Source: Terriglobia bacterium (GTDB taxonomy: Bacteria; Acidobacteriota; Terriglobia; JAIQFV01). From it: a stretch of DNA of 64,000 nucleotides. The stretch is taken from the NCBI GenBank assembly GCA_020073085.1, contig JAIQFV010000003.1, positions 62,001 through 126,000 on the forward strand. Reading direction: 5' to 3'. Under the pieces are notes generated by a model. That model was not told where the DNA came from. It ran no database searches and saw only the letters and a program-made list of their open reading frames with translations. The position numbers and the translations under genes were made by a program. This document shows, piece after piece, positions 11,099-38,513 of this stretch. Numbering within the stretch: position 1 is the stretch's first letter; each line of letters starts with the position of its first letter.

Positions 11099-11174
<76 letters not shown>

Positions 11175-11183
11175 GCGGAAGGC

Positions 11184-11211
11184 ATTATATCCGAGTCTCC
11201 CAAAACTGCAA
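11184..11211 (-). promoter_or_regulatory. Promoter of tRNA-Thr
   Basis: The minus strand carries a consensus -10 TATAAT (11184-11189) and -35 TTGCAG (11206-11211), 16 bp apart, 9 bp upstream of the tRNA. The tRNA therefore does not depend on the transcript that ends at the terminator just upstream. Confidence 0.6.
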
Positions 11212-11299
11212 TGAACAAAAAAAATGCTCACCCGCGAGGATGAGCATTTTCTTGTTAAGGAGGGAATGACGGATGCGCAACCGTCAATACCAAAACCAT
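11212..11299 (-). ncRNA. Candidate small RNA or attenuated leader with strong terminator
   Basis: A promoter (TTGACA 11328-11333, TACTAT 11304-11309) would start a transcript of about 85 nt. It contains a 5-bp hairpin GACGG/CCGTC (11268-11285), then a single-stranded segment ATTCCCTCCTTAACAAG (11251-11267), then a textbook terminator: stem AAAATGCTCATCC/GGGTGAGCATTTT, loop UCGC, eight U residues. CCUCCUUA mimics the 3' end of 16S rRNA and could pair with Shine-Dalgarno sequences. Alternatively the same RNA reads as a leaderless 14-codon peptide, MVLVLTVAHPSFPP, from 11299, its stop codon lying 5 nt before the terminator, which would suggest an attenuator. No downstream gene but tRNA-Thr exists, and that has its own promoter, so I favour a small RNA. 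Confidence 0.45.
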
Positions 11300-11303
11300 G
11301 GCC

Positions 11304-11333
11304 ATAGTAGATAAGGGGCCCTTGTGTTGTCAA
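11304..11333 (-). promoter_or_regulatory. Promoter of the candidate small RNA
   Basis: TTGACA and TACTAT are separated by 18 bp. Upstream lies a run of T residues and a long AT-rich tract that could act as an UP element. Confidence 0.55.
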
Positions 11334-11334
11334 T

Positions 11335-11470
11335 AGAAAAAACTGGATTTCCACAGAAATAATTCCCTTCCTTTTGTAGACATTTCTATCCACATACAAT
11401 GATATTATAAGTAGTGTATATACAGCATTATATAAATTACATTCTAATGTTATTGTTTAAATATTTTTTT
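11335..11470. other. AT-rich tract in a G+C-rich genome
   Basis: The last 70 bp (11401-11470) contain only 11 G or C bases by my count (about 16 percent). The tract includes TGTATATACA, a 10-bp palindrome, and two DnaA-box-like words (CTATCCACA, ATTTCCACA). It could be an UP element, an easily melted site or a relic of foreign DNA. Bases 11471-11640 beyond it show nothing recognisable. Confidence 0.5.
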
Positions 11471-11701: not shown

Positions 11702-12082
11702 ATGCGCCGCCGTGCCTGGAAGAATCTAGTGCTCCTCCTCACCATTCCCATAATCATGTTGTCTCTGATTGCGGACGTCACTCCACTTTACGGTGGTCCT
11801 AAAATCCCCCGGGTCAAAAAGAAGAAGGGCGAAAGCCAAAAGAGCGATCACACCTTCGTAGGTAAGGTCAAATCCATCGATATCAAGAATCGCATCCTGG
11901 TCTTGACCACAACGGAGGGTGATCAGGAGGAAACCTTCAATTATAAGAAGGGCGTCCGGATCACATCGGTCCATAAGACGGGCGAACTGAAAATCTCCGA
12001 ATTGGCTGTCGGGATGCTTGTTACGCTGTACATCAAATCCTCAAAATCGACATCTGAGGTTTACGAGATTCTTCTGATGTGA
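11702..12082 (+). CDS. Small secreted protein of unknown function
   Basis: This 126-residue protein begins with a basic N-terminus and one hydrophobic segment (LVLLLTIPIIMLSLIADVTPL), either a signal peptide or an anchor. A Lys-rich linker follows (PRVKKKKGESQKSDH), then a compact beta-rich domain of about 75 residues: FVGKVKSIDIKNRILVLTT, FNYKKGVRITSV, ISELAVGMLVTLYI, SEVYEILLM. The pattern resembles small OB-like domains of the DUF5666 kind but I cannot assign it. It has its own promoter and a GGAGGG ribosome binding site, and stands alone between divergent and convergent neighbours. Confidence 0.6.
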   Translation: MRRRAWKNLVLLLTIPIIMLSLIADVTPLYGGPKIPRVKKKKGESQKSDHTFVGKVKSIDIKNRILVLTTTEGDQEETFNYKKGVRITSVHKTGELKISELAVGMLVTLYIKSSKSTSEVYEILLM

Positions 12083-12152: not shown

Positions 12153-13328
12153 TCACTTTGATGGAGGGGCAGTGGGGGGTGGATGAACTGTTCTCTCCCA
12201 AAGCCGGAGCTGTGTGAGCTCAACTTCTTCTGGACGATCGAAAATTGAAATCGGCAGCCAGCGCTTGGCGGCGACCCGGATGAAACCAAACACCACGCCC
12301 GCCCCAATTGTAAAAAGGAGCAGAGCTCCCGTCAGCATGATGCTTTGTCTGACCCTTCGAAGATAGGCAGCCACATCTTCTCCGGGTGGGACTTCATCCC
12401 AGGTGAGGTTAGCGCTGTATTGAATCGTTTGCAGCAACGTGTTCGCTTCGGCCTCGCTCAGCGTTCCAAAGAGCAACGCGATCAATGGGCCGCTCCGCTT
12501 ACTGAAGATCGTGCTGGTCGGGGAGGGATTCAGCAGAAGGGAACGCGCATCTTTCATGTCCGTATAAAACTTGCGCGCCAACTGTGGGGTGGGGTAACTC
12601 AACAGCAGGAGTTGTCCTTGCGTGTTCGGAAATTGGTATCTCGCGACTGAGACCTCGGCGCCCATTTCCAAGCCCAGTTTGGCTGTTTGCAGGGGGATCT
12701 TGAGGTCCGAAAAACCTTGCGGGCCGACGGCATACCGGGAGGTTCCGGAAACCTGGTTGTGGAACGGGAGTCGCTTCACAAGATTGGGCAGTTCGGCGTG
12801 CTGCCGGACCAATGCGGAAACCTCCCTTCCGAGGTCCAACAGCTGGGTCTTAGCCTTTCCAGACGCCGTCTGATCATGGATATGGATTACCAGGTTAGCT
12901 TGCCACAGCCACAGGTCATTGGGAGTGGAGGTCGCCTGATCTCCCGTGGGCTCAGCGTGCGCATCGGGCTGAACCTGGATGGTGTAAAGACTGTAGGCTC
13001 CCGAGGGATCTCCCAACTCAAAGATCTGAACGGAAACGGCCCTTGGTCCGCGTTCATAAATCCCTTGCCAAAAGGACCGGAATCCACATTCCTTGAGGAG
13101 GATGGGAGATACCGGGAGGCCGATATCCGGAGAACGGAGAGTTTCCGTGCCCACAAGCGATCCCTGGGCACGCCAATGAGCGGTGGCGCCAATCTTATTC
13201 AGGATTTCCTTCGGAGAAGGAAATAACTTAATCGTTGTTACGAGGGTGTCTTCGGAGTGGGAACTACCTGCGGTGAGCGTGAACGCCAGGCAGCCATAGC
13301 CAAGCAGCTTTACCCAATTCGTCTTCAT
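12153..13328 (-). CDS. DUF6599-like secreted/anchored protein
   Basis: This protein of about 391 residues has an N-terminal signal peptide (LLGYGCLAFTLTAGSSHS) and one C-terminal membrane helix (about 325-350, IMLTGALLLFTIGAGVVFGF) before a short basic cytoplasmic tail ending in PPPTAPPS. The lumenal part contains ELGDPSGAYSLYTI and QGQLLLLSYPTPQLARKFY, which I associate with the DUF6599 family common in Acidobacteriota. No catalytic signature is visible. The start is ATG 13328; a GTG three codons upstream is also possible. It follows the AMIN-amidase gene by 26 bp, so the two are probably one operon and this protein may act in cell-wall handling. Confidence 0.6.
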   Translation of the reverse strand: MKTNWVKLLGYGCLAFTLTAGSSHSEDTLVTTIKLFPSPKEILNKIGATAHWRAQGSLVGTETLRSPDIGLPVSPILLKECGFRSFWQGIYERGPRAVSVQIFELGDPSGAYSLYTIQVQPDAHAEPTGDQATSTPNDLWLWQANLVIHIHDQTASGKAKTQLLDLGREVSALVRQHAELPNLVKRLPFHNQVSGTSRYAVGPQGFSDLKIPLQTAKLGLEMGAEVSVARYQFPNTQGQLLLLSYPTPQLARKFYTDMKDARSLLLNPSPTSTIFSKRSGPLIALLFGTLSEAEANTLLQTIQYSANLTWDEVPPGEDVAAYLRRVRQSIMLTGALLLFTIGAGVVFGFIRVAAKRWLPISIFDRPEEVELTQLRLWERTVHPPPTAPPSK

Positions 13329-13354
13329 ACCCCACACTGCTTCGGAAAGCGTGA

Positions 13355-38040: not shown

Positions 38041-38182
38041 GTGTCGGTGCGGCTCAGCGGGGAACCGTCCGACAGGCTTCAGTTCAATCCACTCAGGGGC
38101 AATTTATCTGCCAATTCTCCGCTTGACAAGGCCAGGAGTTGTTGTTAAGTTTCGCGGCTTCCAGGGGAATGATCTTTTACAA
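38041..38182. other. Spacer before the lysine operon
   Basis: About 140 bp after the hydrolase. It holds the predicted lysC promoter (38123-38151) and no coding sequence; no terminator for the upstream gene is obvious. Confidence 0.5.
38123..38151 (+). promoter_or_regulatory. Promoter of the lysine biosynthesis operon
   Basis: A perfect -35 TTGACA (38123-38128), 17 bp, and TAAGTT (38146-38151). The transcript would start near 38158, about 25-30 nt before the riboswitch aptamer. Confidence 0.6.
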
Positions 38183-38363
38183 CCAAGTAGAGGCGCGGCC
38201 TCCAGGAGTAGCCGGTCCGGAAGAAGTGAAGGATTCAGGATCGCCCGGGCAAAAGGGGAAGGCCGCCGAAGCCGTCGCGCCGCCTTCACGGCAGACGGGC
38301 TGGTTGCTGTGGCTAAATCCACAGGACTGTCGCCGGGATTCATCCCGGTGGAGAGCTACGACA
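38183..38363 (+). promoter_or_regulatory. Lysine riboswitch (L box) aptamer
   Basis: The leader carries the conserved lysine-aptamer elements in order: GTAGAGGCGCGG (P1 5' strand and AGAGG), AGGAGTAGCC, GAAGTGAAGGATTC, AAAGGGGAAGGCCGCCGAAG (junction motif), the hairpin TGTGGCTAAATCCACAGG, GACTGTCGCCGG and GGAGAGCTACGA (P1 3' strand). The order and bases closely follow the known bacterial lysC leaders. P1 would pair GTAG (38187-38190) with CTAC (38356-38359). It sits just before lysC, the expected target, and works with the terminator at 38406. Confidence 0.9.
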
Positions 38364-38405
38364 GAGGCAATGGAGTGCGGTTTCTCCCGCACCCGTCTAT
38401 TCCAA

Positions 38406-38447: not shown

Positions 38448-38513
38448 ATTTCTGGTTGCGGATTGCGGCCAGAGCTTCGACCCCGAACCCAGAGCTGAGC
38501 AGGACTTTTAACC

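Follow-up and report, generated by a model that had tools for sequence, protein, structure and literature searches.

A short RNA gene recurring across Terriglobia, probably a Yfr1-like antisense small RNA

What is encoded by the short stretch that precedes a tRNA-Thr(CGT) gene on the minus strand of the window (the whole 64,000-nucleotide stretch of DNA analysed here, from a Terriglobia genome designated G000)? An earlier note had read there a promoter (TTGACA/TACTAT, 18 bp), a short hairpin, an open anti-Shine-Dalgarno (anti-SD) segment and a 13-bp-stem terminator with U8, and proposed an undescribed small RNA or attenuator with the tRNA downstream. Each of these elements was located (Table 1), and CCCTCCTTAAC at 11264-11254 is single-stranded in the fold. 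Here, we argue that the gene probably encodes a trans-acting, Yfr1-like antisense small RNA (sRNA) that is spread through the class and pairs with Shine-Dalgarno (SD) regions, perhaps together with Hfq.

Table 1. Features of the sRNA locus and its surroundings (window coordinates)
Feature	Position	Strand	Basis or remark
-35 hexamer TTGACA	11328..11333	(-)	Read in the sequence; found in nearly all relatives
-10 hexamer TACTAT	11304..11309	(-)	18-bp spacer to the -35; identical in G001 and G002
Predicted sRNA, about 80 nt	11217..11297	(-)	Start inferred from the -10; end is the U tract
5' hairpin, 6 bp, UGACGG-UUGCGCAU-CCGUCA	11267..11286	(-)	Fold; identical in f1 relatives
Unpaired strip AUUCCCUCCUUAACAA, holding CCUCCUU (anti-SD match)	11252..11267	(-)	Fold and alignment
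Intrinsic terminator, stem of 13 pairs (A-T pairs counted) and U8	11217..11251	(-)	Fold; compensatory change in G002
Conserved box ATTTCTGTGGAAATCC, inverted repeat ATTTC-TGTG-GAAAT, upstream of the -35	11345..11360	(-)	Identical in G001 and G002; possible regulator (transcription factor) site
TATAAT box, putative separate tRNA-Thr promoter	11184..11189	(-)	Conserved in G001 and G002
tRNA-Thr(CGT)	11099..11174	(-)	Frequent downstream neighbour of the sRNA
DUF6599 (PF20244) protein gene	12153..13337	(-)	E 2.6e-22; class-wide upstream anchor of the sRNA
Divergent 126-aa ORF	11702..12082	(+)	Between DUF6599 and the sRNA in family f1

The 16S rRNA of this genome has GGATCACCTCCTTTCT as its 3' end, so that the strip's CCTCCTT genuinely matches the anti-SD sequence, as had been proposed. 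The strip AUUCCCUCCUUAACAA is the presumed seed of the sRNA. The region folds with a z of -4.5 relative to shuffled sequences (none of 200 shuffles was as stable), and this extra stability is mostly due to the terminator. The loop of the 5' hairpin is of the GCGCAU type, and homologous stem-loops are present in other families. A search of its own genome for paralogues of the sRNA returned a single copy only. The inverted repeat upstream of the -35 is kept in three f1 genomes and was not seen in other families, and a Pfam search with the divergent 126-aa ORF gave no match.

Comparison with two relatives, G001 from the same genus and G002 from another genus of the same family, shows that the hairpin plus strip is identical to that of G000 at 36 of 36 positions in both. 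The DNA further upstream is 47% identical to G001 and 26% to G002, and that beyond the tRNA 48% and 28%. As full identity across genera stands against 26-28% in the flanks, the hairpin plus strip is conserved more than expected by chance. In G002 the terminator has been rewritten with its pairing preserved, UGCUCAUCC/GGGUGAGCA being replaced by UGCCCAUUC/GGAUGGGCA. The alignment of the tRNA-Thr locus that the earlier note had suggested thus found the loop identical and the terminator pairing kept, but not the codons of the peptide it had offered as a second reading, a leaderless 14-codon frame (MVLVLTVAHPSFPP) with a regulatory ACG codon. This frame is open in the window sequence only: in G001 a TTG stands in place of the ATG, and G002 lacks a start and contains an in-frame TAG (GGTTTAGG), although the hairpin and strip are identical in both. 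The peptide is therefore not conserved; we dropped it as a candidate and give it almost no credence.

To describe the distribution of the RNA, we label the family-level groups of the class f1-f15; the window genome belongs to f1, and f9, judging by how many complete genomes it has, probably corresponds to Acidobacteriaceae. About a dozen of these groups have the RNA according to covariance models, sequence patterns and a synteny test. A covariance model built from three f1 sequences (R1) and searched over 250 genomes of the class returned convincing relatives in f4, f8, f3 and f7 after promoter and context had been checked; the f4 form is GGCGGAGCGCGUCCGCC-AUUCUAUUCUCCUCU and the f8 form UUGACUUGUUAAGUCAA-CCCUCUCCUCUUUG. 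Many weak R1 matches covered the terminator only and scored on the opposite strand too, and they were accepted only where promoter, strip and context all agreed. When 84,980 named genomes were scanned with a pattern, 25 contigs matched, all from Acidobacteriota and mostly labelled Terriglobia. With a second pattern the RNA was found in 81 f9 genomes, with zero matches for the reversed control, along with three matches in f6, of which two are clearly genuine and one (L127) is something other than the RNA. A covariance model of the f9 form (R2), searched over 396 Acidobacteriota genomes, recovered 42 of the 43 genomes of f9, each with a single strong match, and gave no confident match outside Terriglobia, the best one there (E 3e-4) being taken as noise.

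The class-wide form of the strip is ACUAUUCUCCC with variants, whereas the CCUCCUUA form is special to f1, where the variant is CCCUCCUUAAC and, in this genome, CCCUCCUUA. As the strip differs between families, and lacks CUCC in one genome (G051), matching to the anti-SD sequence is a tendency and not an invariant.

Pairing of the two helices was followed by pair counting. In the f9 set, 98.5% of cells were paired and seven pairs had changes on both sides, a number reached by none of 500 shuffles; all seven lie in the terminator helix, while the 5' helix has changes on one side only. In the combined f4, f1 and f7 set, 96.5% were paired and four pairs had changed on both sides (1 of 500 shuffles), the counts for the 5' helix being rough in this alignment because of a slight misalignment of the 5' stems of f1 and f7. 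Paired changes distinguish the 5' stems of different families, with GACGG/CCGUC in f1, GGCGG/CCGCC in f4 and GUGCC/GGCAC in f6. Within f4 the strip is 97% conserved, compared with 63% for the inner loop of the terminator. Terminators of f4 (L047, L048, L009 and others) carry an extra, variable inner stem-loop of 20-30 nt. Part of the strip conservation seen among the f9 and named loci is built in, since these sets were partly selected on the strip or the 3' stem; the model searches and the synteny test are free of this selection bias.

The synteny test used the DUF6599 gene as a sequence-independent anchor, because it is the upstream neighbour shared by f4, f6, f7 and f9. DUF6599 genes were mapped in 32 genomes, and the sequence that follows 30 of them was inspected over at most 420 nt. 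A unit of promoter, hairpin, pyrimidine strip and terminator was found 3' of the gene in f2, f3, f5, f6, f7, f9, f11, f14 and f15; DUF6599 stands upstream of the sRNA in all of these groups and in f4. Among the 30 genes read, the unit was absent downstream in f8, f12, f10, one f15 and some f6; it was also missing next to the additional DUF6599 copies of f5. In f8 the sRNA sits elsewhere, beside tRNA-Thr and away from DUF6599. That the unit follows DUF6599 on the same strand in most families could mean that it is an orphan terminator or a piece of the 3' UTR of this gene, with no separate gene of its own. We regard this as very improbable, since the unit has its own promoter in essentially all families, a divergent gene intervenes in f1, and the f8 copy lies away from DUF6599. 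The DUF6599 gene, which encodes an exported protein, stands after an AMIN/Amidase_3 gene in the genomes inspected.

The other neighbour of the RNA is tRNA-Thr(CGT), and its proximity was borne out by the pattern scan of named genomes: the tRNA lies at most 700 nt downstream in 22 of the 25 loci, and in two of the remaining three the sequence stretch stops no more than 190 nt from where the promoter begins. It neighbours the sRNA in f1, f3, f4, f8, f11, f14 and some f9 genomes. Could the RNA be a cis-acting leader or attenuator of the tRNA, whose promoter serves the tRNA and whose terminator sets the level of read-through? Besides this adjacency, the reading draws on f3, f4 and f8, where most genomes have just 0-25 nt between the end of the terminator and the tRNA, which leaves no room for a separate promoter, so that the tRNA there may depend on read-through; read-through into the tRNA is possible wherever the terminator abuts it. 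The linkage is not constant, however. The RNA is kept with no following tRNA in f2, f5, f6 and f15, in f7 it is followed by gap-pgk instead, and in f9 it is separated from the tRNA by 0.2-2.6 kb or oriented towards it. Since other groups have gap-pgk or other genes downstream, the RNA is more than just a leader of the tRNA. In f1, moreover, the tRNA has its own conserved TATAAT, which would provide it with a separate promoter. Attenuation of the tRNA as the general function, which the earlier note had left as an option, is thus unlikely in our judgement, and we return to a separate sRNA gene.

We would like to point out that such an RNA would be of a kind already known. Yfr1 of cyanobacteria (PMC2190773, PMC6778093) comes closest as an analogue, by its layout, its spread and its synteny. 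Both RNAs are short, with a 5' stem-loop, an unpaired and conserved pyrimidine-rich strip and a terminator hairpin, and both are spread very widely within one lineage in a conserved gene neighbourhood. In layout alone the RNA agrees with Yfr1 in having two stem-loops around an unpaired strip of 16-20 nt, the 3' one being the terminator. The defining motif of Yfr1 is the undecanucleotide ACUCCUCACAC in its unpaired strip (PMC2190773), and this was not found in the strips read across families, which have ACUAUUCUCCC or CCCUCCUUAAC instead. Yfr1 also belongs to another phylum, has guaB and trxA as neighbours, and has proven targets (PMC6778093), whereas targets are only proposed here. The alpha-r14/NfeR1 and cuckoo RNAs of alpha-proteobacteria (PMC10746234) likewise use unpaired anti-SD motifs, silencing mRNAs at translation start, but they have three hairpins each bearing CCUCCUCCC, while here one strip lies between two hairpins and no repeated CCUCCUCCC was found in hairpin loops. 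A cmscan of the window and 16 loci against Rfam 15 at a permissive threshold gave no match at the sRNA, the Yfr1 and alpha-r14 families included, in line with the earlier suggestion of an undescribed structured RNA. The covariance models of Acido-1 (RF01686) and Acido-Lenti-1 (RF01687), which are also non-coding RNAs from Acidobacteria (PMC2864571) and which the earlier note had wanted checked, matched none of the 16 loci at that threshold. As the defining motifs are absent and the Rfam models do not match, the RNA belongs to neither Yfr1 nor NfeR1/alpha-r14; a full-text literature search, not an exhaustive one, found no description of it, and we regard it as a new family within a known kind of RNA.

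Since the layout and the anti-SD character match those of sRNAs that block translation initiation, we propose the same mechanism here. The RNA's own sigma-70-type promoter and intrinsic terminator, both read in the sequence, would delimit a transcript of about 80 nt, in which the two hairpins would keep the pyrimidine-rich strip open. The strip could then pair with the purine-rich SD regions of target mRNAs and repress them by blocking ribosome binding. Hfq, which is encoded in all ten genomes tested, may bind the RNA and assist the pairing. Alternatively, the GCGCAU-type loop or the hairpin pair could bind a protein, as in titration or as cargo of an RNA chaperone, with the strip as a protein site and not an mRNA seed. 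The loop is indeed conserved beyond the needs of pairing in f1, f4, f6, f7, f11 and f14, where the GCGCAU type recurs. In f9 and f8, however, the loop is not GCGCAU and yet the strip stays, and the strip complements the ribosome-binding sequence as known sRNAs do. We therefore think protein binding improbable, a little more so than attenuation of the tRNA, and prefer pairing with mRNAs.

If the strip pairs with mRNAs, which ones would they be? Near-perfect complements of the strip in G000, G001, G002 and the f9 genomes were not enriched over reversed-pattern controls; when up to two mismatches were allowed, complements of the f1 strip did not exceed the reversed control, and the 13-mer complement of the f9 strip showed no enrichment. 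The start of an ECF sigma gene that three genomes share (L106, L118, L119) was put down to conservation of its coding sequence and not taken as a target. A search of eight f9 genera for GGAGAATAG placed 2-10 nt before ATG gave 28 sites. Seven of the eight genomes have among these the ribosome-binding site of one recurring tiny gene. This gene (MATKKAAKKAAKK..) has 12-24 codons and promoter- and terminator-like sequences of its own. In nine f9 genomes, two more having been added, the sRNA and the tiny mRNA can form 11-12 contiguous perfect pairs (-18.5 to -20 kcal/mol), which stop where the block in the mRNA stops. The mRNA of this Lys/Ala-rich peptide is thus a candidate target in f9, which we take as a lead and not as proof; the pairing could also arise by chance from a conserved, SD-rich leader. 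No such target was found in G000. Relatives of the tiny gene in f15 and f5 had no clear covarying ribosome-binding sites, and that in f3 has a suggestive one with a bulge. It is conceivable, though we hold it only tentatively, that the two form an ancient pair, in which the constant f9 strip CUAUUCUCCCU would pair with an mRNA block that matches it in extent, AGGGAGAAUAG, located at the tiny gene's ribosome-binding site, and control a basic, histone-tail-like micro-protein of 12-24 residues, with other or diverged partners in the wider class.

In f9 the tiny gene consists of a putative promoter TTGACA/T..TCTATACATTC, a leader hairpin, the ribosome-binding site AGGGAGAATAG, a Lys/Ala-rich peptide MATKK.. 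and a terminator-like end. Its loci, around position 1500 of each, are L257, L250, L237, L242, L233, L249, L231, L265, L267 and L266; a relative is found in f15 (L269) and a longer form in f3 (L259).

Acidobacteria are among the commonest soil bacteria. Even so, a survey table (PMC9029176) credits the whole phylum with only 4 distinct annotated sRNAs. A core sRNA that occurs in almost all f9 genomes and in about a dozen family-level groups, together with a candidate target in one of these, offers a concrete entry to RNA regulation in Acidobacteria, and the RNA provides an independent case of the Yfr1 layout. Elsewhere in the window, an ordinary lysine riboswitch (38180-38366 (+), 77 bits) lies directly upstream of an aspartokinase-like ORF that starts near 38499.
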